This document shows positions 22,199 to 39,876 of a stretch of 57,614 bases of DNA, one piece after another. Origin of the DNA: Verrucomicrobiota bacterium (GTDB taxonomy: Bacteria > Verrucomicrobiota > Verrucomicrobiia > Limisphaerales > UBA9464); assembly GCA_947454705.1 (NCBI GenBank), contig CANGKZ010000033.1:1-57614 (forward strand). The letters run 5' to 3'. Positions within the stretch are counted from its first letter, which is position 1. Each line of letters opens with the position of its first letter. The notes under the pieces were generated by a model that ran no database searches, was not told the origin of the DNA, and saw nothing but the letters and a program-made list of their open reading frames with translations. Position numbers and translations under genes: made by a program.

Positions 22199-22326
22199 TC
22201 GGATTTCCTGCGAGGAAGTGAATCCCGGTCGTCTCGCCTATTGCAGGCGGCGGGTCCGCTGGGTCAGGCTTACGCAGTTCTTCACGCACCGAATCACTGG
22301 CTCGTCCCCATCTCTCTTTTTCAAGC

Positions 22327-23613: not shown

Positions 23614-23621
23614 GCCGATCA

Positions 23622-26039
23622 ATGGATGAATACGTCAAAGAGTTCCTCGTGGAGAGCTACGAGAATCTTGACCGACTGGACCGCGACCTAGTGGCCCTTG
23701 AGAAGGATCCGCGCTCCAAGGAGACGCTCGATAGCATCTTCCGCACGATCCACACAATCAAAGGGACCAGTGGATTTCTCGGATTCGGTCGGCTCGAGGC
23801 AGTGACCCACGTGGGAGAGAACCTCCTGAGTAAATTGCGAGATGGTATTCTCATCATCTCTCCGCGCATCACGACGGCTCTGTTGAGCCTGGTGGATGCG
23901 GTCCGCTACATCCTGAACCAGATCGAGAGCACCGGGGAAACCGGGACGAAGGAATTCGCCGAGCTGATCCAGGAACTCACCCGCCTCAACGACGGGGACA
24001 CCGCTCCCGCCACTCCGGTTTCGCTGCCGCCCGTGACGGCTGCCGCGGCTCCCGAGGTCGAAGCTCCATCCCCCGTAGTGGCAACGCCGGCTCCCGCCGC
24101 CGTGGTCGCTCACGTGGAGGTTCCGGTTCCCGCGCCCACTCCAGCTCCAGCCCCGGCTCCAATTCCGGTGGCTGCGGTTGCTCCAGCTCCCGCGCCGGCA
24201 CCAACGCCCGCGCCTGTTGCGGTTCCTCAACCGGTGAAGGCCGTCGTCGCTCCGGCTCCGACGCCAGGACCGACTCCGGCTCCCACGCCCGTTGCGGCCC
24301 CCGTCGCAAGCGCAGAGCCTGCCGCTGAAGTTCACGACGCAAAGGGGTCCGCTGTTTCCGACAGCACCATCCGCGTGGACGTCGGCCTGCTCGACAAATT
24401 GATGAACCTGGTCGGTGAGCTCGTGCTCGCCCGCAATCAGGTGCTGCAATACACGTCGCGCTGCAACGAATCGACCTTCCAGGCCACATCGCAGCGGCTG
24501 AATCTGATCACCACGGAACTGCAGGAGAGCGTCATGAAGACGCGCATGCAGCCCATCGGCAACGTGTGGAGCAAGCTTCCGCGCGTGGTTCGCGATCTCT
24601 CGGCGTCCTGCGGCAAGCAGGTTCGCATCGAGATGGAGGGCAAGGAAACCGAACTCGATAAGACCATTATTGAGGCCATCAAGGATCCTCTGACCCACAT
24701 CGTCCGCAATGCGGTCGATCACGGCATCGAATCGCCGGATAACCGCGTCGCCCGCGGCAAGGAAGCGGAAGGGTGCCTGAAAATGCGCGCCTTCCACGAG
24801 GGCGGACAGGTGAACATTGAAATCTCCGACGACGGCGGCGGCATCGACTGCGCCCGGGTGCGTCAGAAGGCCCTCGATCGCGGGTTGATCACTCCCGAGC
24901 AGGCCGCACGGCTGACGGATCACGAGGCATTCCACCTCATCTTCCTCCCCGGGTTCTCCACTGCGGAGAAGGTCACCAACGTGTCCGGCCGCGGCGTGGG
25001 CATGGATGTGGTGAAAACCAACATCGAGAAGATCGGCGGAACCGTGGATCTCCACAGCCAGCTCGGCGAGGGAACCACGCTAAAGATTAAGATCCCGCTG
25101 ACGCTTGCGATCATTCCGGCGCTGATCGTCACCAGCTGTGGCGATCGCTTTGCCATCCCGCAGGTCAGCCTGCTCGAACTCGTCCGATTGGAGGCCGAAC
25201 AGGCCGCCGCTCAGATCGAGCTCGTTCACGGCGCCCCGGTCTATCGCCTCCGCGGCCAGCTTCTGCCGCTCGTTTATTTGAACGAGCAGTTGAAGGTGGA
25301 ATCCGCCCAGCCGCTCACCGGCGAGGAACCGGTCAACATCGTCGTGCTTCAGGCCGATGGACGCCCGTTCGGTCTCGTGGTGAATCACATCAACGACACC
25401 GAGGAAATCGTGGTGAAACCGCTCGGCAAGCAATTGAAGGGCGTGCCCGTGTTTGCCGGTGCCACCATCATGGGCGATGGACGTGTCGCCTTGATTCTCG
25501 ACGTGCTGGGCATTGCTCAGCAGGCCGGCGTCGTCAACGAGACCCGCAACCGTTCGCTCGGAGATCCCGCACCGGTCCGCCGGGGCATGGATTCCCGGCA
25601 GACGCTGCTGGTGTTCGATGCCGGGCAGGGGAGTCGCATGGCGATCCCGCTCTCCATGGTGGCCCGCCTCGAAGAGTTCAAGCGCAGCTCGATCGAATTC
25701 TCCGGCGCCCAGGAGGTGGTGCGTTATCGCGGCCAGATTCTCCCACTGGTCCGTGTTGCGCGCCACGTCCCGGTCGTTCGGGAGGAAACCGATTACGACG
25801 CCGATGTCATGCAGGTCGTGGTCCATACCGAGCAGGGCCGATCCGTCGGTCTCGTGGTCGGAAAGATCAGCGACATCGTTCAGGAAACCATCACGGTGAA
25901 GCGTCACGCCTACGGAAACGGCCTGTTCGGATCCGTCGTGATCCAGGACCAGGTCACCGATCTGTTGGACGTCCGCGCGGTCGTCCGTGCCGCGGATCCC
26001 AGCTTCTATCCCGCCGCTCCTGCGGCCCACGCCGAATGA
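23622..26039 (+). CDS. cheA: Chemotaxis histidine kinase CheA with two CheW-like domains
   Basis: This is an 805-residue CheA. The Hpt domain (residues 1-105) carries the phospho-accepting H44 in FRTIHTIKGT. A long Ala/Pro-rich linker (about 126-242) replaces the CheY/CheB-binding P2 domain. The dimerisation helices start at VDVGLLDKLMNLVGELVLAR (about 252). The kinase domain has the N box LTHIVRNAVDHGIE (about 356), G1 DDGGGID and G2 GRGVGMDVV. A CheW-like domain begins near residue 492. A second CheW-like segment (about 655-790, QTLLVFDAGQGSRMAIPL) follows, which is unusual. It is the first gene of the operon and overlaps cheW as ATGA. It phosphorylates CheY and CheB in response to receptor state. 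Confidence 0.95.
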   Translation: MDEYVKEFLVESYENLDRLDRDLVALEKDPRSKETLDSIFRTIHTIKGTSGFLGFGRLEAVTHVGENLLSKLRDGILIISPRITTALLSLVDAVRYILNQIESTGETGTKEFAELIQELTRLNDGDTAPATPVSLPPVTAAAAPEVEAPSPVVATPAPAAVVAHVEVPVPAPTPAPAPAPIPVAAVAPAPAPAPTPAPVAVPQPVKAVVAPAPTPGPTPAPTPVAAPVASAEPAAEVHDAKGSAVSDSTIRVDVGLLDKLMNLVGELVLARNQVLQYTSRCNESTFQATSQRLNLITTELQESVMKTRMQPIGNVWSKLPRVVRDLSASCGKQVRIEMEGKETELDKTIIEAIKDPLTHIVRNAVDHGIESPDNRVARGKEAEGCLKMRAFHEGGQVNIEISDDGGGIDCARVRQKALDRGLITPEQAARLTDHEAFHLIFLPGFSTAEKVTNVSGRGVGMDVVKTNIEKIGGTVDLHSQLGEGTTLKIKIPLTLAIIPALIVTSCGDRFAIPQVSLLELVRLEAEQAAAQIELVHGAPVYRLRGQLLPLVYLNEQLKVESAQPLTGEEPVNIVVLQADGRPFGLVVNHINDTEEIVVKPLGKQLKGVPVFAGATIMGDGRVALILDVLGIAQQAGVVNETRNRSLGDPAPVRRGMDSRQTLLVFDAGQGSRMAIPLSMVARLEEFKRSSIEFSGAQEVVRYRGQILPLVRVARHVPVVREETDYDADVMQVVVHTEQGRSVGLVVGKISDIVQETITVKRHAYGNGLFGSVVIQDQVTDLLDVRAVVRAADPSFYPAAPAAHAE

Positions 26040-26527
26040 GTCGCGAACCCGTCCAGACCCGAAACAGCGAGACGCGTCAGTTCTCGACCTTCTTCCTCGA
26101 TGACCAGTTCTTCGGGGTGGAGGTGCTCTCGGTGCAGGAAGTGATCCGGTACCAGGAAATGACCCGCGCCCCCCTCGCGCCCGCGATGGTGAAGGGCCTC
26201 ATCAACCTCCGGGGCCAGATCGTCACTGCGATCGACATCCGCCAGCGCCTTGGCATGCCGGCCCGTGCCGCGGACAAACTGCCCATGAATGTGGTGGTTC
26301 GTTCCGATGACGGCGTGGTGAGCCTGCTGGTGGATTCCATCGGCGAAGTCGTCGAAGTCGGCGACGAAGCCTTCGAGCGTCCCCCGAAGACCCTCGGCGC
26401 CGCGGCGCAGGAGCTGGTCAAGGGCGTCTATAAACTCAAGGAGCGCCTACTCCTCATCCTCGACACCGAGCGCGCCATCACGCTGCCCGGCATCACCAAT
26501 CGAACCTCCACTGCGGTGGCCGAGTAA
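26036..26527 (+). CDS. cheW: Chemotaxis coupling protein CheW
   Basis: This 163-residue protein is the SH3-like adaptor that links receptors to Che[21 protein letters not shown] is the usual start of the fold, and [19 protein letters not shown] is the core motif shared by CheW and CheA-P5. It closes with ILDTERAIT. Its ATG overlaps the cheA stop (ATGA, 26036-26039). With two more CheW-like modules in CheA, the system has three such domains. Confidence 0.94.
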
Positions 26528-26583
26528 TTCAGGCCGCCAACGATTCAATCCGTTTACCCAATCTCCCTTTTCTCAGTCCAGCC

Positions 26584-28806
26584 ATGCAAAGTACCACTCA
26601 TCACAGTCGATTCACCCAAAGCTCGGGATCTTCGCGCATTCCGGTGCGTGATCTCGCTCCGTCCCGCAACGGAAATGGATCCAACTCCAATTCCAATTCC
26701 AGCCACCGCAATGGGCAGCATAGCTCCAACGGCGCGCCCCATTTCGAAAACGGCCACGCCCATCAGTCGGCGCCGTCCACGAGCCAGCACGGCGAGCTCG
26801 GAAATTCTCTGCGTCAGAAACTCCGTGACCTCGGCCTCGGTGCCCGGGTGTTCATCGGACTCGCGGCGATCGCGCTGAACGTGGCGGTGCTGATCTTCGT
26901 GTACCAGACGACGCTGTCGAACGTCCGCGTCGGCGGGCCGGTGTACAACCAGATTGCCGATGCCAAGGACGTTGTCGCCGACATCCTGCCGCCGCCGCTC
27001 TACATCATTGAGGCGTTTCTCAACACGCACGAGATCGAGGATCGAACCGACAAGGAATCCCTGCAGAAGCAGATCGTGCGCAATGCCGAGCTTCACAAGG
27101 AATACAACGACCGCCACGAGGTTTGGGCCAAGAAGCTGCCTTCGGGGGCCTTCCGTTCGGCCATCGTTGAGGAAGCCCACGCTCCGGCGGTGGCATTCTT
27201 TGAAGCCGTGGAAAAGGAATTGATCCCCGCCATGCAACGCGGGGATCGGAAGGGCGCCCGCGATGCGATTGAGAATCACGTCAAGCCGCGCTTCGAGGAG
27301 CATCAGGCAGCCATCGCCAAGGCGGTGAAGCTCGCGGAGCAGGAGCAGTCTTCCATTCAGAAGCATGCCGATGAAGTCACCTCCAAGGCGACGACCCAGG
27401 TGGCGGTTCTGCTCGCGATCGCCATTGGTATCGCGTCCTTTGTGGGGCTTGTTCTTACCCGCAGCGTTGCCCTTCCGGTGAACCGCATGAAGAGCGAGCT
27501 CGACCTGATCAGCAAGGGCGACAATTCGGTCCGTCTGGTTGTGGACTCCCGTAACGAAGTCGGCCAGATCGCCGTGACGGTGAACAACGTCATGGAACAG
27601 ATCTGCGACCAGATGCGCATCAACCAGGAACACCAGAATCAGGCGAATGCGATGCAGAAATCCTCTGCCACCATCGAGTTCCTCCCGGATGGAACGGTCG
27701 TGACCGCCAATGAAATCTTCTGTCGCGTCATGGGGTACTCGCTGGAGGAGATCAAGGGGCGCCATCACCGCATTCTTTGCGATCCGTCCTATGTCAACAG
27801 CAACGAGTATCAGCAGTTCTGGAATGATTTGAGGGACGGACGTCCCCAGAGCGCTGACTTTAGACGGTTCGCGAAGGACGGTCGGGAAGTCTGGTTGCAG
27901 GCGCTCTATAATCCCGTTGCAGATGAGTCGGGTCGCGTGGTGAAGGTGATCAAACTCGCCACCGATGTCACCAATCGGAAGCAGATGGAAGCCAGCCTGG
28001 CCCAGACCATGGATGCGGTTTCCGGCAACGCGCAGACCCTCGGGTCCGCCTCCGAAGAACTCGCGGCGAACAGCCAGCAGATGGTGAGCAACGCCGAGGA
28101 GACCGCCACCCAGGCCGGTGTCGTGTCCGCAGCCGCGGAGCAGGTGAGCAAGAACGTGCAGACCGTCGCCACCGGCACCGAGGAGATGAGCGCGAACATT
28201 CGCGAGATCGCCAAGAACGCGCAGGAAGCGGCCAAGGTGGCTGCCACCGCCGTTCGCGCCGCCGAGGTTACCAACTCCACCGTGTCCAAGCTCGGTGAGA
28301 GCAGCGCGGAAATCGGCCAGGTCATCAAGGTCATTACCTCGATTGCCCAGCAGACCAACCTCCTCGCCTTGAACGCCACCATCGAAGCCGCCCGCGCCGG
28401 AGAAGCCGGCAAGGGATTCGCGGTGGTCGCCAACGAGGTCAAGGAACTCGCCAAGGAAACCGCCAAGGCCACCGAGGACATCAGCCAGAAGATCGAGGCG
28501 ATCCAGACCGACACCCGCAGCGCGGTGGCGGCGATCAACGAGATCAGCACGGTGATCAACCGGATCAACGACTATCAAAACACGATCGCCAGCGCGGTCG
28601 AGGAACAGACTGCAACGACCAACGAGATCAGCCGAAACGTGGCGGAAGCCGCCCGCGGAGCCTCGGAGATCGCGCAGAACATCACCGGCGTCGCCCAGGC
28701 GGCGAAGAGCACCATGTCCGGTGCGAACGACACCCAGAAGGCGTCGGCCGAACTCTCCCGGATGGCGTCGGAGCTCCAGTCCCTCGTCGCCGAGGTGCGC
28801 CGTTGA
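26584..28806 (+). CDS. Methyl-accepting chemotaxis protein with PAS domain
   Basis: This is a 740-residue receptor. Residues 1-80 form a cytoplasmic extension rich in Asn, Ser, His and Gly (such as [12 protein letters not shown]), unusual for an MCP. TM1 is about 88-107 and TM2 about 270-292, enclosing a helical periplasmic sensor of about 160 residues. HAMP follows (about 293-345), then a PAS domain (about 358-470, [17 protein letters not shown] and [14 protein letters not shown]). The signalling hairpin has its tip at about residue 587 ([20 protein letters not shown]). No C-terminal CheR/CheB-docking pentapeptide is present (it ends AEVRR). It lies 56 bp after cheW and probably senses a periplasmic and a cytoplasmic input. 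Confidence 0.94.
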
Positions 28807-28839
28807 ACCGGCCACAACCCCGTATCGGAATCCCATTCT

Positions 28840-29205
28840 ATGCGCGCCCTGATTGTAGATGATTCAAGGTCGATGCGGATGATCCTGACCAAGATCCTTC
28901 GTGAGATCGGATTTGAGTGCAGCGAATCGGCCGACGGCCAGGCTGCCCTCGATCGCCTCAATCGCGGCGAGGCCTTCGACCTGATGCTGGTGGATTGGAA
29001 CATGCCCATCATGAACGGGTATCAGCTGGTCTGCGCGGTTCGATCGAACCCGCTGCTCGGCGATACGCGGATCATGATGGTCACCACCGAGACCTCCATG
29101 ACCCAGGTGCAGGCCGCCCTGAGTGCGGGAGCCAACGAGTATCTCATGAAGCCCTTCACCAAGGAGCTGCTTCTGGAGAAACTGCAATTGATCGGAATCA
29201 GCTGA
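28840..29205 (+). CDS. cheY: Chemotaxis response regulator CheY
   Basis: This is a 121-residue stand-alone receiver domain. The acidic pair is D7/D8, the phospho-acceptor D52 in LMLVDWNMPIMNG, the switch Thr at 82/83 in MVTTET, and the conserved Lys K104 in LMKPF. Phosphorylation by CheA would alter its binding to a motor or other output. It lies 33 bp after the MCP and 12 bp before cheB. A second single-domain receiver (32785) is in the same operon, so the division of labour is open. Confidence 0.92.
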   Translation: MRALIVDDSRSMRMILTKILREIGFECSESADGQAALDRLNRGEAFDLMLVDWNMPIMNGYQLVCAVRSNPLLGDTRIMMVTTETSMTQVQAALSAGANEYLMKPFTKELLLEKLQLIGIS

Positions 29206-29217
29206 CGCGTTCCGATT

Positions 29218-30375
29218 ATGCGCCGAATCCGAGTCCTGATTGTCGACGACGCCGTGGTGATCCGGCGGATGCTGTCCGACTGCCTTGCCGGCGACCCCGG
29301 CATCGAGGTGGTGGGAACCGCACCCGACGGGAAGATCGCCCTGGCCAAGATGGATCAAGTGAACCCGGATTTGGTGACCCTGGACATGGAGATGCCGGTG
29401 ATGGGGGGACTGGAGACGCTGACCGCGCTCCGGAAGACCCATCCGAAGCTTCCGGTGATCATGTTCAGCACGCTCACCGAGCGCGGGGCATCGGCAACCC
29501 TCGATGCCCTGGCGCGCGGCGCGAGCGACTACGTCACCAAGCCCGCCAACGTGGGCAGTGTGACGGTGGCCATGCAGCGAATCCGGGATGAACTCGTCCC
29601 GAAGATTCGTTCGCTATGCAAGGTGGAGCAGTTTGTCCCGACTCCGCGCCTTTATTCCAATCCGGTGATGACTGCGGCTCCCACCCGGAGCCGGTCGTCC
29701 CCGCAACGTCCGGAGGTCCCGCTCGTCGGTGGCCGGCCGGAGCTGCTGGTGATCGGGGTTTCCACCGGGGGCCCCAATGCCCTCGCAGCCCTGCTGCCGA
29801 AACTGAGCCGTTCGTTTCCTGTACCTATTTTGATCGTTCAACACATGCCGCCCCTGTTTACCCGATTGCTTGCCGAGCGCCTTGCGGCGGTCAGCGGCAT
29901 GCCCGCGCGGGAAGGCGTGGCCGGGGCGGTGTTGAAACCCGGGGAGATCTGGGTGGCCCCCGGAGGTCATCACATGGAGGTGGAGCGGAATCTCAACGTG
30001 CTTCGCCTGAAGATCCATGAGGAGCCGCCGGAGAACTCCTGCCGTCCCGCCGTGGATGTTCTATTTCGTTCTGCCGCCCGTTCGGTCGGTTCCCGGTGTG
30101 TGGGAGTGATCCTCACCGGAATGGGATCGGACGGCGTGCGCGGCTGTGAAGACCTGCGAGACGCCGGAGCCCAGGTGCTCGCACAGGACGAGGCGTCCAG
30201 TGTGGTCTGGGGCATGCCCGGCGCCGTTGCGCGCGCGGGTCTCGCCCACCGCGTGCTCTCCCTCGATGAGATGCCGGTGGAAATCAATCGTCGAATCTTT
30301 CCGGGTCTCGTTTCTGGTTCCTCCAGTGCGGCGAACACCCCGAGTCAGTCTGCCAGTCTGCTCAAGGCCGCATGA
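29218..30375 (+). CDS. cheB: Chemotaxis protein-glutamate methylesterase CheB
   Basis: This is a 385-residue CheB. The receiver domain (1-120) has D10/D11 and phospho-acceptor D56 in TLDMEMPVMGG. A Pro/Arg-rich linker follows. The methylesterase domain (about 175-375) has the Ser-His-Asp triad at S182 (IGVSTGGP), H209 (VQHMPP) and D305 (GMGSDGV). It removes methyl groups added by CheR and can deamidate receptor glutamines. The stop overlaps cheR as ATGA (30372-30375). Confidence 0.95.
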   Translation: MRRIRVLIVDDAVVIRRMLSDCLAGDPGIEVVGTAPDGKIALAKMDQVNPDLVTLDMEMPVMGGLETLTALRKTHPKLPVIMFSTLTERGASATLDALARGASDYVTKPANVGSVTVAMQRIRDELVPKIRSLCKVEQFVPTPRLYSNPVMTAAPTRSRSSPQRPEVPLVGGRPELLVIGVSTGGPNALAALLPKLSRSFPVPILIVQHMPPLFTRLLAERLAAVSGMPAREGVAGAVLKPGEIWVAPGGHHMEVERNLNVLRLKIHEEPPENSCRPAVDVLFRSAARSVGSRCVGVILTGMGSDGVRGCEDLRDAGAQVLAQDEASSVVWGMPGAVARAGLAHRVLSLDEMPVEINRRIFPGLVSGSSSAANTPSQSASLLKAA

Positions 30376-31382
30376 ATCCTTCCACACCCCAATCGCCACG
30401 CATCCCTGCGAGGTTTCCGCTCCCCGCAGGCGCGCCGGCACGGCCGACCTCGGTCTTCGGCACACCCTCGACCCCGCCGCGTCCCACGGGCAGCGGTCCG
30501 GGCGGATTTCCCGCCCCGCTTCCTGCTGCCGCTGCGCCAGCGCCGATGGCACCGCCGGAAAAAATGTCCGCCGCTGATTTCGACTACATCCGCAACATGG
30601 TCCGGGACCAGGCGGCGATCGTGCTCGAAGTCGGCAAGGAGTACTTGGTCGAATCGCGTCTGCTCACGCTCGCCCGCAAGGAGGGCTTGAACACGGTTTC
30701 CTCCCTGGTGACGCAGCTGCGTGCCGCGCCGGGCGGGCCACTGCAGCGCAAGGTGGTCGATGCAATGACCACGAACGAGACCTCGTTCTTCCGCGATCTG
30801 CATCCGTTCGAAACCCTCCGCAAGGCGATCATCCCGGCGGCGATGGAGCGACGGAAGGTGGAGCGCCAGCTCAACATCTGGTGTGGTGCCGCCTCCACTG
30901 GTCAGGAGCCCTACAGCATCATGATGCTCATCCATGAGCATTTTCAGGAGCTGCTGGGATGGAACTTTCGGTTTGTGGCCACGGATTTGAGCTCCGAGGT
31001 GCTGGCTCGCGCCAAGGCCGGCCGGTTCTCTCAGCTCGAGGTCAACCGCGGCCTGCCTGCACCTCTTTTGGTCAAACACTTCATGCGACACGGCATGGAG
31101 TGGGAGATCCGCGAGGACATCCGCAAGCGCGTCGAGTTCCGCGAACTGAATTTGATCCGCGAATGGCCGGTGATGCCATCGATGGATATTGTCTTTCTGA
31201 GAAACGTCCTTATCTATTTCGACGCCGACACGAAGCGTCAGATTCTTGGACGGATCAGGAGGTTGTTACGGCCGGGCGGTTGCCTGGTATTGGGGGGAGC
31301 GGAAACCACCCTGGGTCTGGACGACAATTACGAACGCGTCGTTGTTGACCGGACCACGTTTTACCGGGTTCGAGCTGTCTAA
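30372..31382 (+). CDS. cheR: Chemotaxis protein methyltransferase CheR
   Basis: This is a 336-residue CheR. The first 60 residues are a Pro/Ala/Ser-rich extension. The helical N-terminal subdomain (about 65-125, IRNMVRDQAAIVLEVGKEYL) precedes the SAM domain with WCGAASTGQEPYSIMM. The FVATDLSSEVLARAK segment and DIVFLRNVLIYFD are typical. It methylates glutamates on the MCP, opposing CheB. The MCP lacks the CheR-tethering pentapeptide, so recruitment would have to be untethered. Confidence 0.94.
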   Translation: MNPSTPQSPRIPARFPLPAGAPARPTSVFGTPSTPPRPTGSGPGGFPAPLPAAAAPAPMAPPEKMSAADFDYIRNMVRDQAAIVLEVGKEYLVESRLLTLARKEGLNTVSSLVTQLRAAPGGPLQRKVVDAMTTNETSFFRDLHPFETLRKAIIPAAMERRKVERQLNIWCGAASTGQEPYSIMMLIHEHFQELLGWNFRFVATDLSSEVLARAKAGRFSQLEVNRGLPAPLLVKHFMRHGMEWEIREDIRKRVEFRELNLIREWPVMPSMDIVFLRNVLIYFDADTKRQILGRIRRLLRPGGCLVLGGAETTLGLDDNYERVVVDRTTFYRVRAV

Positions 31383-31396
31383 CAGGGGGAATCCGA

Positions 31397-32242
31397 ATGA
31401 TTGATCTCAACAATCTCATCGAGCAGGCCAACAACCTGACTCCGCTTCCGGCAACCACGGTTCTATTGGCGCAGCTGGTGTGCAGCCCGGACTGTTATCT
31501 GGAGGATGTGGCGGAACTGATCGGCTTCGATCAGGCGTTGACGCTCAAATTGCTGCGCGCGGCGAACTCCGCTGCGAGCGCGAGTGCCGTTCGCTACGGA
31601 ACGGTCAAGGAGGCCGTGGCGCGGTTGGGGACCGCCCAGGTGCTGGCATTCGCGGTGGCCTGCAGCACGCGTCCGTTTCTCCAGGCTGCGGTGCCCGGAT
31701 ACGGACTCGATGAAGGCGCGTTGTGGCGTCATTCCGTGGCCTCGGCCATTGCCGCCGAAGTCGTGCCCGAGCTGTGCCGGGTGGAAGTCCCGCCCGAATC
31801 GTTCACCGCCGCGCTGCTTCACGATGTGGGCAAGCTGGTCATGGGACGCTTCCTCACGCCCGAGGTGCGCGGATATCTCCGGCGAGCCTACGAGGTGGAC
31901 CACATCCCGCAGCGCGAGGCCGAGAGTCTCCTGCTCAATGTCCATCATGGGGAGCTCGGCGGCATCATCGCCCAGCATTGGAAACTTCCGGTGCGTGTCG
32001 TTCAGGGCATTACGCATCACCACACGCCCGACCGCGGCATGGATGTGATCTGCGACGTCACCTACCTCTCGAATCAAATCGCCAAGGGGATCGAGGCGAG
32101 CGTCGAGGGACGCGCCTACGAAATGAAGCTGGAGCCCGAGGTGACCGAACGGCTCGGAATCGAACCCAAAATCGTGGAGAGCCTGTGTCCGATCGCCGCG
32201 TTGCGATACGCGCAGGTGGGCCGTCGTTACAATGCGGTCTGA
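31397..32242 (+). CDS. HDOD domain protein
   Basis: This is a 281-residue HDOD-domain protein. It starts LPATTVLLAQLVCSPDCYLE and AELIGFDQALTLKLLRAANS, the standard HDOD opening, and continues with SAVRYGTVKEAVARLG. Unusually for HDOD it keeps HD-like residues (LWRHSVAS, LLHDVGKLVMG), though a full HD phosphohydrolase site is not evident. HDOD proteins act in cyclic-di-GMP and stress signalling and are seen beside chemosensory genes. It lies 14 bp after cheR, with a likely ribosome site in aggggg (31384-31389). Confidence 0.88.
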   Translation: MIDLNNLIEQANNLTPLPATTVLLAQLVCSPDCYLEDVAELIGFDQALTLKLLRAANSAASASAVRYGTVKEAVARLGTAQVLAFAVACSTRPFLQAAVPGYGLDEGALWRHSVASAIAAEVVPELCRVEVPPESFTAALLHDVGKLVMGRFLTPEVRGYLRRAYEVDHIPQREAESLLLNVHHGELGGIIAQHWKLPVRVVQGITHHHTPDRGMDVICDVTYLSNQIAKGIEASVEGRAYEMKLEPEVTERLGIEPKIVESLCPIAALRYAQVGRRYNAV

Positions 32243-32263
32243 TTCCGTAGCGCACTTTTAACT

Positions 32264-32752
32264 ATGCAAACAACCAACGTGCAGGTGATCGGCGAAGTCT
32301 GTGAGCTGCTGAACAGCGGCATCAGCGAAGTGTTCAGCACCATGTTCAGCCAGTCCGTCGAGGCGATTTCGCCGCCGGATCTTCGGTTGACCCAGGAGGT
32401 GCTGATTGCCGGATCGGTCGGGTTCGTGGGCGAGGCCAACGGCGTGGTGTACGTGCACCTGACCGAATCCTTCGCCAAGTCGCTCGCCTCGGGCATGCTT
32501 CAGATGCCGGAGAACGAACTGGACGACGAAATGGTCAACGATGCCGTGGCCGAGATCAGCAACATGATCGTGGGCTCGGTGAAGTCGAACCTTTGCGACC
32601 GCGGCTTCCCGTGCGTCCTGACCATCCCGTCCATCGTTCGCGGACGCGACTTCGGCGCCGAAGCCTCCGCCGGCTCGGAACGCGCCAGCCTTGGTTTCCA
32701 ATGCGGACCCGGTCAGCTCTTCGTGGAAGTGCTGGCACGGCCTCCCCAATAA
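32264..32752 (+). CDS. CheX/CheC-like CheY-P phosphatase
   Basis: This 162-residue protein resembles CheX, a CheY-P phosphatase. The catalytic E-x2-N pair is E97/N100 in DAVAEISNMIVGSVKS, the same spacing as CheX of other bacteria. A beta-rich segment with SVGFVGEANGVVYVHL precedes it and LGFQCGPGQLFVEVL ends it. Only one E-x2-N site is visible, as in CheX rather than CheC. It would reset the CheY proteins of the operon. It is 21 bp after the HDOD gene and 32 bp before the second cheY. Confidence 0.85.
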   Translation: MQTTNVQVIGEVCELLNSGISEVFSTMFSQSVEAISPPDLRLTQEVLIAGSVGFVGEANGVVYVHLTESFAKSLASGMLQMPENELDDEMVNDAVAEISNMIVGSVKSNLCDRGFPCVLTIPSIVRGRDFGAEASAGSERASLGFQCGPGQLFVEVLARPPQ

Positions 32753-32784
32753 CGAACTCAGCCTTCAGGTTTCCCAATCACGAC

Positions 32785-33171
32785 ATGAGCAAAAAGATTC
32801 TGACGGTGGACGACAGTCGTACCATCCGAATGATCATCCGACGCGCGTTCAAGGCGCATGACTGCACCTTTGTCGAAGCCGGCAATGGCGAGGAAGGCCT
32901 CGCGGTTGCCGCCAAGGAAAAGCCCGACCTCATCATCCTCGACATCACCATGCCGGTGATGGACGGGGCGACGATGCTGGGTCGGCTGCGGCAGGATCCG
33001 GACCTCAAGGGGATCCCGGTGATCATGCTCACCGCCGAGTCCGGCCAGGACAACGTGGCCCGCATTGCGGGTTTGGGAATCAGTGATTACGTGGTCAAAC
33101 CGTTCAAAGACGACGTGCTGCTGGAAAAGGCCTCCAAGGTCATTCCGCTGGCACTGCTCCAAGCCGCCTGA
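32785..33171 (+). CDS. Second CheY-like response regulator
   Basis: This is a 128-residue receiver domain. Acidic pair D9/D10 (VDDSRT), phospho-acceptor D53 (LIILDITMPVMDG), Thr83 (MLTAES) and Lys105 (VVKPFKD) are all intact. The ATG at 32785 was chosen as the codon before MSKKILTVDD; the longer upstream reading would overlap the CheX-like gene. Its last stretch KVIPLALLQAA is longer than that of the first CheY. It sits between two CheX-like modules, so a phosphate sink or a second output is plausible. Confidence 0.92.
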   Translation: MSKKILTVDDSRTIRMIIRRAFKAHDCTFVEAGNGEEGLAVAAKEKPDLIILDITMPVMDGATMLGRLRQDPDLKGIPVIMLTAESGQDNVARIAGLGISDYVVKPFKDDVLLEKASKVIPLALLQAA

Positions 33172-33190
33172 CAGCGGCGGAAAGAATCCG

Positions 33191-34105
33191 ATGCAACAGC
33201 CTGCACCCCGCTCCCTGTTTCCGACGAAGCCGCTTGCTCCGCGGCCCGCTTCGACGCCGCTGGGTGGCACTCCCCTGGGTGCGAGCCGACCGCTCGTGCC
33301 GGGCGCTCCCGCTCCTGGAGCCCCCAGGCCCGGCGCGCAGCCGGTGCCGCAAAAGCCCGGCGCCCCGGCCAAGCCCGGCGCTCCCGCCGCGGGCACCACG
33401 TCGGAAATCACCAAGCGTTTCGGCCTCGAGCCGCTGCCGGAAAGCGTCGTCCAGCTCACGCGGCTCGTGGCCCGACGCGAGGCCTGCGCCGATGAAATCG
33501 CCAAGGTCGTCTCCAAGGACCCCGCGATCTCCAAGCGCCTGCTTCGTTTCGCCAATCCCAAGGCCGCCGACGAATCGGATTACATCATCACCGAGGTCGG
33601 CTCCGCCCTCATGCGCACCGGCATGTCCCCGGTGATCCTGCTGGCGATGCTTGATCCGCTCATTCGCGCCGTGATCAAGGCCTTCGAAATGGGCCAAACC
33701 CACCTCAAGCACGAACCCCTGATTCACTGGCATCCGTTCCAGGGAACCCACCTGCTGGGCATCGTCGGTTTTTCCGGCAATGCCACCGGAGTGGTCCACA
33801 TCCGCATCGAACCCGGCGTGGCGCAGCGCCTTGCAGCGGCCATCATCGGAGTGGAACCGAGCGATCTGCAGGATCCCGCGGAAGTCGATGACGTGATCGG
33901 CGAGCTGGTCAACATCGTCGCCGGAAATCTGAAATCGAACCTCTGCGATGCCGGCATCCCGTGCACGCTGACCCCGCCGCGGGTGGAACGCGCGGCGGAC
34001 TGCAAAATCATCACCATCCCCGGCGGCGTTTCCGAGCGACTCGGATTCCTGGCCCCGGATTACCAGATCCTGGTGGATGTGAGCGTCAACCCCTGGACCG
34101 AGTAA
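33191..34105 (+). CDS. HDOD (N-terminal part)-CheX fusion protein
   Basis: This is a 304-residue fusion. Residues 1-70 are a Pro/Ala/Gly-rich disordered lead. Residues about 78-165 match the opening of an HDOD domain (LEPLPESVVQLTRLVARREA, EIAKVVSKDPAISKRLLRFAN) but stop before the second half, where the 281-residue neighbour continues. Residues about 172-300 are CheX-like, with E238/N241 in IGELVNIVAGNLKSNL and a beta-rich close. It resembles the two preceding unlinked genes joined together. It is the last gene of the operon, 19 bp after the second cheY and 50 bp before the terminator. It may be a CheY-P phosphatase with a sensory HDOD half; this is inference. Confidence 0.82.
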   Translation: MQQPAPRSLFPTKPLAPRPASTPLGGTPLGASRPLVPGAPAPGAPRPGAQPVPQKPGAPAKPGAPAAGTTSEITKRFGLEPLPESVVQLTRLVARREACADEIAKVVSKDPAISKRLLRFANPKAADESDYIITEVGSALMRTGMSPVILLAMLDPLIRAVIKAFEMGQTHLKHEPLIHWHPFQGTHLLGIVGFSGNATGVVHIRIEPGVAQRLAAAIIGVEPSDLQDPAEVDDVIGELVNIVAGNLKSNLCDAGIPCTLTPPRVERAADCKIITIPGGVSERLGFLAPDYQILVDVSVNPWTE

Positions 34106-34154
34106 AACCCGCACCGGATTACGGACGGCCGCCGTTCGAAAGGATCAGGAAACG

Positions 34155-34187
34155 AAACAGGGCCCGCCATCACGGCGGGCCCTGTTT
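34155..34187. terminator. Bidirectional terminator, 14-bp perfect stem
   Basis: AAACAGGGCCCGCC (34155-34168) and GGCGGGCCCTGTTT (34174-34187) pair perfectly around a 5-base loop. T runs follow on the plus strand, and on the minus strand the stem itself ends in TTT. It serves the convergent chemosensory operon and the aminotransferase gene. Confidence 0.9.
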
Positions 34188-34193
34188 GTTTTC

Positions 34194-34207
34194 AAAGGAG
34201 GTGGATC
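34194..34207 (-). promoter_or_regulatory. Anti-Shine-Dalgarno-like element in aminotransferase 3' UTR
   Basis: On the minus strand the bases just before the terminator read CACCTCCTTTGA, close to the 3' end of 16S rRNA (CACCTCCTTTCT). On the plus strand it appears as a strong AAAGGAGGTG with no usable start codon after it. It may be chance or a 3'-UTR element able to pair with ribosome binding sites. Confidence 0.25.
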
Positions 34208-34233
34208 AATTCTGATCTGACCCACGCCGCGCC

Positions 34234-35403
34234 TCAGAGGCTGCGGACGAAACGGTCGAGACGGTCGAGTCCCTTCTCGATGTTGGCCAGGCCGGTGGCG
34301 TAGCTGATGCGGAGGTAGTCGTCGGCACCGAAGGCGATTCCCGGAACGGCGGCGACCTTTTCCTGCTCGAGCAGGCGGGCGCAGAAATCCGCCGACTTCA
34401 GGCCGGTCTTGGAAATGTTCGGGAACAGGTAGAACGCGCCCTTGCTGTTCACGCACGAGATGCCCGGGATGCTGTTCAGCTTCTGCCACGCGTAGGTGCG
34501 GCGCTTGGCGTATTCCGCGAGCCAGAGGGGCAGATGCGCCTGCGATCCGGTCAATGCCGCCACGCCGCCCTTCTGCGCGAAGGAGCAGGGGTTGCTGGTG
34601 CTGTGGGACTGCACGGCGTCGATGGCCTTGGCGATCGGCTCCGGAGCCGCGAGGAACCCGAGACGCCACCCGGTCATGCTCCACGCCTTGGCGAAGCCGT
34701 GGACAATGATGGTGTGGTCCTTGTGGGCCTGGCTGAAGCTGGCGACGCTCTTCACCACCGCGCCGTCGTAGGTAAGGTGCTCGTAGATTTCATCGCTCAT
34801 GATGAGCACGCCCTTTTCGACGCAGATGTCGCCGAGGGCCTTGACCTCTTCCGGCGTGTACACGCTGCCGGTGGGGTTGCTCGGGGAGTTGAGGATGAAG
34901 AGCCGGGTCTTCGGCGTGATGGCCGCGCGGAGCTGCTGCGGAGTGACCTTGAATTCGGTTTGGTCGGTGGTGGTGAGGATCACCGGGGTCGCGCCCGCGA
35001 GCTTCACCATCTCGGGATAGCTCAGCCAGTAGGGGGAGGGGATGATCACTTCGTCGCCCTCCTCGCAGGTCGCGAGAATGACGTTGTAGCACGAGTGCTT
35101 GCCGCCGTTGCTGACGATGATCTGGGACGGCTTGTACGAAAGCCCGTTCTCCTTCTGGAACTTGTCGGCAATGGCCTGGCGGAGTTCCGGAATGCCGGAG
35201 CTCGGAGTGTACTTGGTGAAGCCGGCGCCGATGGCCGACGTGGCGGCGTCCTTGATGTGTTGCGGGGTGTCGAAATCCGGCTCGCCGGCACCAAAACCCA
35301 CGACGTCCTCACCCGCGGCTTTCATCGCCTTGGCCTTGGAATCAATGGCCAGGGTAAGCGACGGGGACAACGAGGCTGCGCGATGCGCGATCTTGTAGTT
35401 CAT
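34234..35403 (-). CDS. Pyridoxal-phosphate aminotransferase (aspartate aminotransferase class Ib)
   Basis: This is a 389-residue fold-type I PLP enzyme. The Schiff-base lysine is K239 in HGFAKAWSMTGWRLG, the phosphate and carboxylate contacts include N176 (SNPTG), D204 (SDEIYE) and R247. The N-terminus LSPSLTLAIDSKAKAMKAAGEDVV is typical of the class Ib aspartate/prephenate aminotransferase subgroup. It would interconvert aspartate and oxaloacetate and may also use prephenate. It is monocistronic and converges on the chemosensory operon across a shared terminator. Confidence 0.93.
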   Translation of the reverse strand: MNYKIAHRAASLSPSLTLAIDSKAKAMKAAGEDVVGFGAGEPDFDTPQHIKDAATSAIGAGFTKYTPSSGIPELRQAIADKFQKENGLSYKPSQIIVSNGGKHSCYNVILATCEEGDEVIIPSPYWLSYPEMVKLAGATPVILTTTDQTEFKVTPQQLRAAITPKTRLFILNSPSNPTGSVYTPEEVKALGDICVEKGVLIMSDEIYEHLTYDGAVVKSVASFSQAHKDHTIIVHGFAKAWSMTGWRLGFLAAPEPIAKAIDAVQSHSTSNPCSFAQKGGVAALTGSQAHLPLWLAEYAKRRTYAWQKLNSIPGISCVNSKGAFYLFPNISKTGLKSADFCARLLEQEKVAAVPGIAFGADDYLRISYATGLANIEKGLDRLDRFVRSL

Positions 35404-35515
35404 AAACAGGGCGCGCGGAGGTTGGGGAACCCGCGTCGGGAGGCAAGCGGAACTTCACGTTTCCGTCACCGGTCGGTACCCCGGGGCGCTCCCTGCATGT
35501 ACCAAAATGGGTGCG

Positions 35516-37117
35516 TCAAACCCTGACCGAATCCCAGTCCAGACCGAACCGGGCGAGGTACTTTCTCAGTCGGTCGGCATCGTTCACCGCCTTGCGCTTT
35601 TCCCGGCTGACCGAAAACAGCGCGCGCCCGGCTTCGGAAAGCGACCGCGATTTCCGGCAGGCCACAACCACCTCGCGCAACTGCACGCGGTCGAAACGAT
35701 CCAAGTTTGATACTCCCTCGATCCCGAGCAGCGCGAGCAGCGGATCCGACGCATCGCCGGCACGTGCCACCGGTCCCCACTCGGAGCGCAGGCGTTCCAG
35801 CTCGGCATCGAGAAGTACCGCCGTGATGCGTCCTCCGGGCGCGAGCGTGGCCAGACGGGTCACGCACGCATTCAGGTCGCGGAAGTTCGCGGTCCATCGC
35901 GCCTCGGGCGATCGGGCAAACTTCAGGAACCGCTCCCGCAATTCCCGGCTCAAGGTCACCCGGAGGTTGCGTCGCCGGCCGGCCTCCTCGAGTTCGAAGT
36001 CCAGGTTGGGCTCGATGTCCTCGGGGCGTGCCGCGAGGCCGGGCAATCGGAAGGTCCACAGATGAATGCGCGCCAGCAGGTCTTCGCGGAAACGTCCCGC
36101 CGCGACATCGGCCCGGAGGTCGCGGTTCGTTCCGGCGATGAGTTGAAAATCGCTCCCCACTTCGCGATCGCCGCCCAGCGGCAGGAACCGCTTTTCCTCG
36201 AGAGCGCGCAACAGCATGGCCTGTTCGTCCGGTCCGAGTTCGCCGATCTCATCGAGGAACAGCAATCCCCCGTCGGCGCTGCGCAACAGCCCCGGACGGT
36301 CCTTAGCCGCCCCGGTGAACGCGCCCTTCACGTGACCAAACAAGGCCGACATCGCGGCGTCGCCCCGCAGCGTGGCGCAGTTCAGGTCCACCATCGGACC
36401 GGTCAGTTGATGACGCGACTTCTTGAGTTCGTAGATGCGGCGGGCGAGCCGTGATTTGCCCGACCCCGTGGGTCCGAGCAGCAGCATGGGTTCCGTGGAA
36501 TGGATGGCGACCTGTTCAATGGAATCGATCAGCTGATTGAACTTCGCATTGCGCGTCTCAATTCCCGACTTGAGGAACGACACCGCATCCAGGGTTTCCC
36601 GCGAGAACCGGGCCGCGATGCGGTCGTACTTCGAGAGGTCGAGGTCGATGATGCTGAAGCTGCCCTTCGGATCGTCGCGTCGGCTGGCCTTGGGGGAAGT
36701 CTGGATCAGCCGCGCCGGGAGGTGTCGCGACTCGGTCAGCAGGAAGAGGCAGATCTGCTGCACATGGGTTCCCGTGGTGATGTGCACTAGGTACTCCTCC
36801 GCGTCGGGTCGAAACGGATAGCTCCGCGCCCACTCGTAAAGCGACGCGTACACTTCCTCGAAATCCCAGGGATTCTCCAACGGCTGGGGAATGAGATTCA
36901 CCCGGATGTCTTTTCGGACCCGGGCGAGATCCGCCGCCACGCACCGCGCCGTGTCCACATGCGCGGGCTGGTGCAGCAGTTCCACGCGGTCCACGGGCAG
37001 GTCGTCGTGCTGGGCCAGCGACACGGTCGGCCGCCACTTGGCCCACCGCTCCTGTCGGAACCCGGAATCCAGCGTGCTGCCCAGGATTCCCAAGATCACA
37101 CGTGGCTTCGATGACAT
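35516..37117 (-). CDS. rtcR: RNA-repair transcriptional activator RtcR
   Basis: This is a 533-residue sigma-54 activator, the length usual for RtcR. Residues about 1-180 form the CARF-like sensor of the family (VILGILGSTLDSGF, VHITTGTHVQQICLFLL). The AAA+ domain has the P-loop GPTGSGKS at 215-222, the sigma-54 contact loop GAFTGA at 265-270 and Walker B LLFLDEIGE near 286. The C-terminal part is the DNA-binding region. The ATG at 37115-37117 was chosen because sequence upstream is not family-like and would enter the promoter region. It is divergent from rtcB-rtcA, which it presumably activates in response to RNA-end ligands. Confidence 0.95.
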   Translation of the reverse strand: MSSKPRVILGILGSTLDSGFRQERWAKWRPTVSLAQHDDLPVDRVELLHQPAHVDTARCVAADLARVRKDIRVNLIPQPLENPWDFEEVYASLYEWARSYPFRPDAEEYLVHITTGTHVQQICLFLLTESRHLPARLIQTSPKASRRDDPKGSFSIIDLDLSKYDRIAARFSRETLDAVSFLKSGIETRNAKFNQLIDSIEQVAIHSTEPMLLLGPTGSGKSRLARRIYELKKSRHQLTGPMVDLNCATLRGDAAMSALFGHVKGAFTGAAKDRPGLLRSADGGLLFLDEIGELGPDEQAMLLRALEEKRFLPLGGDREVGSDFQLIAGTNRDLRADVAAGRFREDLLARIHLWTFRLPGLAARPEDIEPNLDFELEEAGRRRNLRVTLSRELRERFLKFARSPEARWTANFRDLNACVTRLATLAPGGRITAVLLDAELERLRSEWGPVARAGDASDPLLALLGIEGVSNLDRFDRVQLREVVVACRKSRSLSEAGRALFSVSREKRKAVNDADRLRKYLARFGLDWDSVRV

Positions 37118-37154
37118 ATCCCACAGGATAAGAAACGAGCGGATAGGCGCGCCA

Positions 37155-37217
37155 CCAAAAACCGGGTTGAACCCGCGATCCGTCGGAGCTTTATGGAAAT
37201 ACGCCAAAAACCGCGTT
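37155..37217. promoter_or_regulatory. Direct repeat, candidate RtcR-binding sites
   Basis: CCAAAAACCGGGTT (37155-37168) and CCAAAAACCGCGTT (37204-37217) are identical at 13 of 14 positions, 49 bp apart, close to a whole number of helical turns. They lie about 80 and 31 bp upstream of the sigma-54 -24 element. The first also forms half of an inverted repeat (CGGGT TGA ACCCG at 37163-37175). This layout suits activator upstream sites. Confidence 0.5.
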
Positions 37218-37247
37218 TTCTGGCCGTAACGAGTGGGGATTCCGGGT

Positions 37248-37262
37248 TGGCATGCCGCCTGC
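37248..37262 (+). promoter_or_regulatory. Sigma-54 promoter of rtcBA
   Basis: TGGCAT-N5-CTGC at 37248-37262 matches TGGCAC-N5-TTGC with two mismatches; the invariant GG (37249-37250) and GC (37261-37262) and their spacing are intact. Initiation near 37274 would leave a leader of about 38 bases. An adjacent RtcR gene makes sigma-54 dependence expected. Confidence 0.75.
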
Positions 37263-37311
37263 GATAAGGGGAGTGTCGATACACGACAAGACGAAGAAAC
37301 AAAGGCATTCG

Positions 37312-38706
37312 ATGAACACGAACGAGTTGGTGGAATTGGGGATTGGGGAAGGGGACGCCCTGCGGCTGGCCAAGGACTTGATGGCGACTTGGGCGCTGGC
37401 GGGAGTGAACCCGAAGACGTTTCGTGCCGAAATCGAAGCCGTGGTGGGGAACCCGTCGGCCTTCGAGGCCGATGCGGAACGGGGCGGGCTGGCGCGGGCG
37501 TTGATCGCCGGAGCGAAGTATCGGCGCGCACAGCCCGCCCCCTGGAAGCAGTGGGGTGCGGGGCTCGAACAGGAAGCCATCGCCCAGATGCGTCGCGCCA
37601 GCCAGCTCCCGGTCTCGGTGGCCGGGGCGCTCATGCCTGATGCCCACGTGGGCTACGGCCTGCCGATCGGCGGCGTGCTCGCCACCGAGGGCTCGGTGAT
37701 TCCGTACGCGGTGGGCGTGGATATTGCGTGTCGCATGAAGATGACCGTGCTGGATCTGCCGGTGCGCGATTTGGAGCGCCGACGCGACAAGCTGGTCCGG
37801 GCCATTGAGGACGAAACCCGTTTCGGAATCGGTGCGCGCTTCAAGGTCCACCGCGAGCACGAGGTCATGGATGCCGATTGGTCCGTGAGCCCGATCACGC
37901 GTCAGAACAAGGACCGCGCCGCATCGCAGCTTGGAACCAGCGGAAGTGGAAATCACTTCGTGGAGTTCGGCGTGTTCACCAATCCGGAGCCGATCGGCGA
38001 GTTGCCGGCCGGCGAACACGTGGCGCTGCTCAGCCATAGCGGAAGCCGCGGAACCGGGGCTGCGGTGTGTGATCACTACAGCAAGCTGGCCATGCGGTTG
38101 CGGTCGGATCTGCCGAAGGAAATGCGCCAGCTGTCCTGGCTCGATTTGGATTCGGCCGAGGGCCAGGAGTATTGGGCGGCGATGGAGTTGATGGGTCAGT
38201 ACGCGTCGGCCAACCACGCGTTGATCCACCGGCACATCGCTCAGCATCTCGGGCTCGAAGTGCGGCTCGATGTGGAAAACCACCACAACTTCGCGTGGAA
38301 GGAACGCCATCGCATTGACGGTGTGGAGCGCGACCTCGTGGTGCATCGCAAGGGCGCCACACCGGCCTCGGCGGGGGTGCTGGGAATCATTCCTGGTTCC
38401 ATGGCTTCGCCTGGATTCCTGGTGCGCGGACGCGGGAATCCAGAGTCGTTGAACTCGGCCTCGCACGGTGCAGGCCGCGTGATGAGCCGCACCAAGGCGG
38501 CGGCCACCTTTGATTGGAAGACCGTGGGTCGCGAATTGAAGGAGAGCGGGGTGGATCTGCTCTCGGCGGGCCTCGACGAGGTGCCGGGAGTGTACAAGGA
38601 CATCCATCAGGTGATGGCGGCGCAGACGGATCTCGTGGAAGTGCTCGGACGTTTTGATCCCAAGCTGGTCAAGATGGCCCCCCACGGGGAGCGGCCGGAG
38701 GATTGA
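37312..38706 (+). CDS. rtcB: RNA-splicing ligase RtcB
   Basis: This 464-residue RtcB joins RNA ends with 2',3'-cyclic phosphate and 5'-hydroxyl, using GTP and manganese. Family signatures: PDAHVGYGLPIGGV, GVDIACRM (the family norm is GVDIGCGM, so two residues differ), SGSGNHFVEFG, SHSGSRGTG, HNFAWKE, and near the C-terminus ASHGAGRVMSRTKA with the His that carries GMP. The start at 37312 (MNTNELVELGIGEG) was chosen because an upstream in-frame ATG-like region overlaps the sigma-54 promoter. It is the first gene of rtcBA. Confidence 0.95.
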   Translation: MNTNELVELGIGEGDALRLAKDLMATWALAGVNPKTFRAEIEAVVGNPSAFEADAERGGLARALIAGAKYRRAQPAPWKQWGAGLEQEAIAQMRRASQLPVSVAGALMPDAHVGYGLPIGGVLATEGSVIPYAVGVDIACRMKMTVLDLPVRDLERRRDKLVRAIEDETRFGIGARFKVHREHEVMDADWSVSPITRQNKDRAASQLGTSGSGNHFVEFGVFTNPEPIGELPAGEHVALLSHSGSRGTGAAVCDHYSKLAMRLRSDLPKEMRQLSWLDLDSAEGQEYWAAMELMGQYASANHALIHRHIAQHLGLEVRLDVENHHNFAWKERHRIDGVERDLVVHRKGATPASAGVLGIIPGSMASPGFLVRGRGNPESLNSASHGAGRVMSRTKAAATFDWKTVGRELKESGVDLLSAGLDEVPGVYKDIHQVMAAQTDLVEVLGRFDPKLVKMAPHGERPED

Positions 38707-38797
38707 GCCTCTCGAACGAGGCTCGTTGCGGAGCGGATAAAGAGGTGCGGGGGCGGGGACGACGTTGCAGTGCGCTGCGTCGGGACTCCGCCCCCGC
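38705..38797 (+). ncRNA. Structured intercistronic RNA between rtcB and rtcA
   Basis: Two stem-loops are visible. First, GAGCCTC (38705-38711) pairs with GAGGCTC (38718-38724). Second, an extended hairpin: GCGGGGGCGG (38747-38756) pairs with CCGCCCCCGC (38788-38797), then CGACG (38760-38764) with CGTCG (38778-38782), then CAG/CTG closing a TGCG loop. It could be an RNA processing signal, an attenuator, or a small RNA; Rtc loci are sometimes linked to Y RNAs, but no Ro60 gene is here. Confidence 0.45.
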
Positions 38798-38835
38798 GGA
38801 AACGGGGTGGGATTTCGGGGAGATGGCGGTGTCGC

Positions 38836-39876
38836 ATGATTGAAATCGATGGATCACAGGGAGAGGGCGGAGGGCAGGTGCTTCGGTCGGCGCTGGGGCT
38901 TTCCATGGCCACGGGACGGCCGTTTCGCATGACCCAAATTCGGGCTGGTCGGAAGACTCCTGGATTGATGAAGCAACATCACACTGCCGTGGAAGCCGCG
39001 GCCCGGATCTCCGGCGCGGAGGTGATCGGTTCGTTTGTGGGATCGACCTCGCTGGAGTTTCGACCGGGCCGTGTGGTGACGGGCACCTACGACTTCGACA
39101 TTGGGTCGGCAGGCAGCACCATCCTCGTGTTTCAAACGTTGCTCCCGGCCTTGCTGTCGGCGTCGGAGCCGACCGTGCTGACGCTTCGGGGCGGCACCCA
39201 CAATCCGTTCGCACCTTCGTTTGAATTCTTGGAACGGAGCTTTCTGCCCTGCCTCCGGAGAATAGGCGTGGCAGTCCATGCCGAGTTGGTTCGGCCCGGA
39301 TTCTTCCCGGCGGGCGGCGGCATTTTGAAGCTGCGCGTGGAGCCTTCGACGCGTTTGTCGACATTCGACCTCCTCGACTGCGGGGAACTGTCGGCCCCCG
39401 TTGCACGCGTGCTGCTCTCGCGGTTGCGGTCCGCTTGGGCGAATGACGGGATTCAGATCCTGAGGGAACAACTCGGACTCGCGGAATCGGCGGTGGAAAC
39501 GGTTTCGGTTCCCGATCCGATCGGCCCCGGGAACGCGCTCCTGGTCGAGTATCGCATGGAAACGTTCTCGGCCGTGTTCACGGGCATTGCCGATCGGCGG
39601 GCCACCAGCGGAGATGCCGCCCGGGAGGTCTGCGCCGAAGCATTGGCCTGGCGGAAGGCATCGGTGCCGGTGGACGAACATCTGGCCGATCAACTCCTGC
39701 TCCCGCTCGCACTCGCCGGTGGAGGAAGCTTCCGCACCACCGCACCTTCCGGCCATTCCCGAACGCATGCCGACATTATCCATCGGTTCCTTCCGGTTCG
39801 GGTTGGGTTTGAGCTGGATTCAGATCGGACATGGCGCGTTGCGGTGGAGGGCGAGTCTCGCGCATCGACGGCTTGA
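38836..39876 (+). CDS. rtcA: RNA 3'-terminal phosphate cyclase RtcA
   Basis: This 346-residue protein converts RNA 3'-phosphates to 2',3'-cyclic phosphates with ATP, via an adenylated His. Family signatures are IEIDGSQGEGGGQVLRSALG at the start, GLMKQHHTAVEAAA, the GSAGSTILVFQTLLPALL segment, and HLADQLLLPLALAGGGSF. A C-terminal THADIIHRFLPV region contains the candidate nucleophile His. The start ATG at 38836 was chosen as the codon directly before MIEIDG. It follows rtcB across the structured gap. Confidence 0.95.
   Translation: MIEIDGSQGEGGGQVLRSALGLSMATGRPFRMTQIRAGRKTPGLMKQHHTAVEAAARISGAEVIGSFVGSTSLEFRPGRVVTGTYDFDIGSAGSTILVFQTLLPALLSASEPTVLTLRGGTHNPFAPSFEFLERSFLPCLRRIGVAVHAELVRPGFFPAGGGILKLRVEPSTRLSTFDLLDCGELSAPVARVLLSRLRSAWANDGIQILREQLGLAESAVETVSVPDPIGPGNALLVEYRMETFSAVFTGIADRRATSGDAAREVCAEALAWRKASVPVDEHLADQLLLPLALAGGGSFRTTAPSGHSRTHADIIHRFLPVRVGFELDSDRTWRVAVEGESRASTA

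Follow-up and report, generated by a model that had tools for sequence, protein, structure and literature searches.

The protein half-HDOD-CheX joins the N-terminal half of an HDOD domain to a CheX domain, and sequence comparison indicates that it belongs to an old, conserved chemotaxis-operon family of Verrucomicrobiota rather than being a recent accident of one genome. We favour, as the probable function, a phosphatase of CheY2-P whose HDOD lobe is non-enzymatic and serves in docking or regulation.

The half-HDOD-CheX gene and its operon

The gene is the last of ten co-directional chemotaxis genes in the window (the whole 57,614-nucleotide stretch of DNA that was analysed). We read these genes, cheA-cheW-receptor-cheY1-cheB-cheR-HDOD-cheX-cheY2-half-HDOD-CheX, as one operon. 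For the first three the names come from reading, and other loci have comparable genes in a comparable order; the next six were assigned with Pfam, and the last from its open reading frame, its Pfam domains and its orthologues elsewhere.

23622..26039, + strand, cheA
26036..26527, + strand, cheW
26584..28806, + strand, chemoreceptor (MCP) gene
28840..29205, + strand, cheY1
29218..30375, + strand, cheB
30372..31382, + strand, cheR
31397..32242, + strand, full-length HDOD gene
32264..32752, + strand, solo cheX, with its own ExxN motif (AEISNM)
32785..33171, + strand, cheY2, a single receiver domain; conserved neighbour and likely substrate
33179..33184, + strand, GGAAAG, resembling a ribosome site, 6 bases ahead of the half-HDOD-CheX ATG (read from the sequence)
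33191..34105, + strand, half-HDOD-CheX gene, 304 amino acids
33191..33397, + strand, residues 1-69, leader rich in Pro, Ala and Gly (20 Pro, 13 Ala, 9 Gly)
33428..33667, + strand, residues 80-159, HDOD N-terminal half (Pfam profile, PDB profile and fold matches)
33626..33688, + strand, residues 146-166, predicted single long helix (79-99 of the core model) that ends the HDOD half and opens the CheX domain as its first helix
33641..34102, + strand, residues about 151-304, CheX domain (Pfam, PDB profile and fold matches)
33902..33904, + strand, E238 codon (E in 26/26 aligned members)
33911..33913, + strand, N241 codon (N in 24/26 aligned members; T in the two receiver-fused members)

The gap between cheY2 and the half-HDOD-CheX reading frame is 19 bases. 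Pfam bore out the separate HDOD (31397-32242) and CheX (32264-32752) genes that a preliminary description of this DNA had noted upstream, and that description was also right about the kinship of the fusion's two domains to these unlinked genes. Low-complexity stretches rich in Pro and Ala occur in the same operon in the CheR N-terminus (30372-30560), CheA (23622-26039) and the fusion protein (33191-33397); the core alignments of the half-HDOD-CheX family exclude leader residues 1-69.

On the window protein, Pfam matched residues 80-159 to HDOD (positions 2-80 of the 196-position profile, E 9.9e-9, 35.4 bits against a cut-off of 22.9), in agreement with the half-length HDOD domain proposed earlier at about 78-165, and CheX at residues 189-273 (E 3e-16, 59.7 bits, cut-off 27). 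The HDOD part thus corresponds to the N-terminal 40% of the domain, with CheX in place of the HD-like second half. Profile comparison against PDB chains gave HDOD 3m1t (E 2.9e-9) and CheX 3iic (E 4.6e-15). These two matches overlap at the common helix, the HDOD match extending to profile position 93 and the CheX match starting from 83, and residues about 145-157 match both families. CheX therefore starts near residue 146-151 rather than at 165. E238 and N241, the very residues first singled out in the CheX-like domain, lie in the ExxN position and correspond in the alignment to the IGELGNM motif of CheX from Thermotoga (1squ). Against the curated Thermotogales CheX equivalog NF041094, the window protein scored 37 bits, below the 280-bit cut-off.

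Predicted fold

We modelled the core with AlphaFold2, using an alignment (A2) of the window core and 25 named loci (defined below), and obtained a pLDDT of 85.9 and a pTM of 0.81. Four HDOD-lobe helices are predicted to lead into one 21-residue helix (residues 146-166), which is also the first helix of CheX. The preliminary description had proposed structure prediction as a check on whether the half HDOD folds; in this confident model it does, and it is joined to CheX by the one common helix.

In fold comparison, the CheX part of the core model matched 8 CheX or CheX-like entries (Z 17.6-19.8). One of them, 3hzh_B, is the CheX chain from the Borrelia complex of CheX with CheY (Z 18.3, 147 residues, 2.6 A). 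HDOD entries 3p3q (Z 9.8, 71 residues, 2.7 A) and 1vqr (Z 8.9, 70 residues, 3.0 A) were also matched, and more weakly 3ljx, the same protein as 3p3q (Z 5.0, 65 residues, 2.6 A); all three scores lie in a range (Z under about 13) that can be common among helical bundles. Foldseek alone found no HDOD chain at E < 0.1 for the core model (best 3p3q, E 0.16), and we base the assignment on the Pfam, PDB-profile and fold-comparison matches; the sequence evidence agrees with the structural HDOD match. Given the fold of the lobe and the overlap at the common helix, the half HDOD in the model looks like a complete N-terminal lobe rather than an arbitrary truncation.

Distribution of the domain pair

The same domain pair, which the earlier description had suggested looking for in other genomes, is present in many of them. 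With few candidates scored per genome and E-value limits of 1e-10, 1e-20 and 1e-40 in the order, phylum and class samples, the numbers of genomes matching across both domains are lower bounds: 21 of 293 in the order (own genome included), 6 of 286 in the class (three of them outside the order) and, in the phylum sample, the window's own genome alone among 387. Within the 21, the gene is interrupted by stops in G078 and cut at a contig end in G219; a seventh match in the class sample (G727) runs off the edge of its contig. A search of 23 other genomes from the same family gave no half-HDOD-CheX match.

A scan of named species genomes with one exact peptide pattern, by which more distant fusions could be missed, including any outside the phylum, gave 33 stretches and 29 relatives, all from Verrucomicrobiota taxa save L060 and L062, which are labelled only 'bacterium'. 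Leaving out L070 (stops), L075 (most of the HDOD half missing), L078 (solo CheX) and L080 (a contig-edge fragment), we retained 25 named loci from 23 genomes, the pairs L063/L073 and L065/L072 each coming from one genome. Loci of the order sample and the named genomes overlap, and identical reading frames were counted once. Orthologues of the window fusion, spread over many families, are 31-52% identical to it; a distant member, L077, has an HDOD part at 18.7 bits, below the Pfam cut-off of 22.9. Plasmids gave no match to the fusion, and viral contigs gave 6 pattern stretches, none of them a relative. Three plasmid-borne CheX genes of other phyla matched solo CheX; the two examined, annotated at 133 and 155 codons, are too short for the fusion.

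Origin of the fusion and selection on its domains

In a tree of 101 CheX domains, 31 fusion rows (L075 included) form one clade with support 100/95, in an analysis whose bootstrap had not settled (0.909). The input was 110 matches, from which twelve were left out (one duplicate, eleven with poor coverage), and the L068 solo CheX was put back by hand. Inside the clade lies one degenerate solo-type CheX, from L072, on a very long branch (4.54), which we treat as a long-branch placement. When five long-branch rows were left out, all 30 fusion rows again formed one clade (support 99). The fusion CheX clade stands apart from the operon's solo CheX, and an AU test rejected sister kinship of the window's two CheX domains (p-AU 0.0028). 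In the HDOD tree, the 31 half-HDODs likewise form one clade (99/98; one extra row is the front piece of an interrupted fusion). Both domains of the window protein fall within the clades of other members. The simplest reading of these trees would be one ancient fusion event. Because the half-HDOD clade has the HDOD type of the window operon as its closest neighbour in this tree, which is unrooted and comprises 92 columns and 76 rows, the half-HDOD possibly derives from an ancient duplication of the operon's HDOD.

Among 11 close pairs, of which several have dS values near or past saturation, dN/dS was 0.10-0.30 for the half-HDOD in 7 (those with finite dS) and 0.10-0.18 for CheX in 9. Pairwise identity averages 47% in the half-HDOD and 44% in CheX. 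The codon comparisons thus indicate that the half-HDOD is under purifying selection.

These results do not support the origin first proposed, namely duplication and fusion within the window operon. That a recent event of this kind left the half-HDOD as a remnant is very improbable: both domains do occur unlinked beside the fusion in the same operon, the half-HDOD resembles the operon's HDOD (E 2e-6, in that single comparison) and the CheX domains of the fusion and the solo gene are 36% identical over 118 positions, but the one old clade, the orthologues across many families, the AU test and the selection acting on the supposed remnant all argue against it.

Receivers beside and within the fusion

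A CheY2-type receiver accompanies the fusion in 24 of the 25 named loci: its gene adjoins the fusion on one side or the other in 20 and is separated from it by one gene in 2 (L066, L074), and in 2 more (L063, L065) the receiver is fused in frame. The remaining locus, L062, lies at a contig edge, with no CheY2-type receiver in view. The intervening gene in L066 (9049-9969) and L074 (6676-7611) is a further HDOD gene, located between cheY2 and half-HDOD-CheX (by Pfam for L066). Solo CheX occurs in 19 of the 25 loci and a full HDOD gene in 16. CheX, CheY2 and the fusion stay linked even where the remaining operon is of another type, with a CheA 42-44% identical to the window's, compared with 62-83% in the others (loci with CheA in reach).

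In L063 (1105-2202) and L065 (279-1373), CheY, half-HDOD and CheX form one open frame, and all three domains score in Pfam. Both proteins carry Thr at the catalytic Asn position (ExxT), and both genomes hold a second, ExxN copy lacking the receiver (L073, L072). With Thr at that position, these receiver-fused members at least may be non-phosphatases. A model of the natural CheY-half-HDOD-CheX protein does not fix the receiver-CheX arrangement (pTM 0.63); its fold comparison gave, among the matches listed, nearly all receivers. L072 also encodes, at 12618-14246 and in the same locus as its half-HDOD-CheX, a CheR fused to a CheX that is degenerate (18.8 bits, cut-off 27) and does not have ExxN.

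The receiver fusions bear on a different reading of the family, in which the main task of the CheX domain is binding of CheY2, to hold or to sense it, with catalysis secondary or lost and the output carried by the HDOD lobe. It would explain why the two in-frame fusions retain the CheX domain yet have ExxT for ExxN, alongside a second, receiver-free ExxN copy in each genome, and it fits an operon that already has a solo CheX with its own ExxN. We nevertheless consider it unlikely, as both catalytic residues are retained in 24 of the 26 aligned members, and a protein that only binds would not need them to that extent.

HDOD, CheX and CheY2-type receivers elsewhere in the phylum

The association extends beyond the fusion. 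In 35 of 49 other CheX loci (a count that leaves out L105, which is the window itself), the gene beside CheX encodes a protein whose CheY2-type receiver is 57-69% identical to CheY2. Where the frame is clear these receiver proteins are about 385 residues long (for example L010 316-1956 and L084 1060-3160); the one scanned by Pfam has two receiver domains and a STAS match below cut-off. Within the order, 15 of 18 stand-alone CheX loci have an HDOD gene as divergent neighbour, compared with 1 of 24 in other orders of the class, as counted in 1.5 kb flanks with a profile built from half-HDODs, which may miss far HDODs. From the receiver neighbours and the divergent HDOD neighbours, we conclude that HDOD, CheX and CheY2-type receivers recur together in the phylum in three arrangements: operon, divergent pair and fusion.

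This recurrence also bears on a reading in which the HDOD lobe is a pairing arm that binds the corresponding N-lobe of the operon's own full HDOD protein, or a second copy of itself, so that a mixed HDOD-CheX complex senses a signal and gates the phosphatase. Full HDOD genes in 16 of 25 fusion loci, the divergent HDOD neighbours of stand-alone CheX and the position of the operon's HDOD type as nearest tree neighbour of the half-HDOD would all suit it; however, 9 of the 25 loci have no full HDOD gene in the stretch fetched, some of these being short, and we regard this reading as improbable.

The HDOD gene of the operon can outlive the operon. In the genus-mate G006 (L112; G006:C41 4209-8727, corresponding to window positions 22222-35454), the genes flanking the operon are kept (85% and 93% identical), with no che gene between them and only the HDOD gene remaining (83% identical). 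A query with the half-HDOD-CheX fusion met only this HDOD gene in G006. Because HDOD sits inside the same operon in other families, we infer loss of the che genes at this site rather than insertion.

G006 gave no FliG match. Above cut-off, FliG was found in 19 of 21 fusion-bearing genomes, compared with 98 of 272 others (Fisher p 9e-7, a value that ignores kinship); the two fusion-bearing genomes that lack a FliG match are G173 and G078. In the window's own genome, FliG and four genes of the PilT family score above cut-off. On the basis of the FliG association and the FliG of its own genome, the operon is probably a flagellar chemotaxis operon.

A proposed role for half-HDOD-CheX

The preliminary description had suggested a phosphatase with a regulatory half, and a phosphatase remains the reading we favour: the CheX domain of the fusion would dephosphorylate CheY2, the product of the neighbouring gene. 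Phosphatase activity is suggested by the conserved ExxN pair together with the predicted fold, and CheY2 as the substrate by gene order and the natural receiver fusion. The helix bearing ExxN would put its Glu and Asn into the active site of the receiver, as in the CheX mechanism; the catalytic role of this pair reportedly goes back to work on Thermotoga and Borrelia. As the HD-like half is missing, the HDOD lobe is expected to be a non-enzyme, and this absence, together with selection on the lobe, suggests a docking or regulatory role. Joined through the continuous helix, the lobe would place the phosphatase on a partner: on CheY2, on the full HDOD protein or at some other point of the pathway. 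The operon would then have two sinks for CheY2-P, the solo CheX and the fusion, which differ in placement or control.

More tentatively, the HDOD N-lobe could be a docking module for the CheY2/CheX pair, with half-HDOD-CheX its minimal covalent form and the ExxT CheY-half-HDOD-CheX proteins a catalytically silenced form, complete in itself, that reads or stores phospho-CheY rather than clearing it. If so, HDOD domains in the phylum would act as partners of CheX and CheY2-type receivers.

Relation to known systems

Like characterized CheX proteins (PF13690; Thermotoga 1squ/1xko, Borrelia 3hzh, Vibrio 6vpw), the window protein has the full CheX fold and sequence, with ExxN in register and a CheY gene adjoining. 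The solved CheX chains that were matched begin at the first CheX helix, whereas here a half-HDOD lies ahead, sharing that helix. Its N-terminal helical lobe is alike in sequence and fold to that of HDOD proteins (PF08668; MmoQ 3p3q/3ljx, Cj0248 1vqr, 3m1t, 3i7a), but these have the second, HD-like half that CheX replaces here.

Among open-licence PMC literature, we found none combining HDOD and CheX. One study describes CheC/CheX fused to CheA in Leptospirae (PMC10782961). Those proteins similarly place a CheC/CheX phosphatase domain on another chemotaxis module, but the partner is the CheA kinase, whereas in the half-HDOD-CheX family it is a half-HDOD, plus CheY in two loci. The Verrucomicrobiota loci with CheX beside CheY2-type receiver proteins show the same pairing, in the order often with an HDOD gene, but as separate genes with no half-HDOD and with the receiver within a larger protein (of about 385 residues in those examined). 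Of two further papers, one treats HDOD as a domain whose function is unknown, with phenotypes in motility in several bacteria (PMC11004494); in the other, another HDOD protein has a swimming phenotype (PMC11813219).

CheX and HDOD are both known families; the interest here lies in an HDOD lobe tied to known chemistry, and no new chemistry is implied. With the HDOD N-lobe linked, covalently and genomically, to a phosphatase of known chemistry and a candidate substrate adjacent, the family offers a direct way to test binding by the HDOD lobe, and the members that naturally have Thr for Asn and carry a receiver of their own provide a ready comparison for the CheX mechanism.

Two further features of the window lie outside the operon. 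Beside it, at 35516-39876, lies an rtc cluster for RNA repair, in which an RtcR regulator gene faces the genes of RtcB ligase and RNA 3'-phosphate cyclase. Very large proteins that look secreted are encoded at 10850-15577 and 39910-43368, and the two have similar repeated openings (for example EIHYHPV, NELHFHP).
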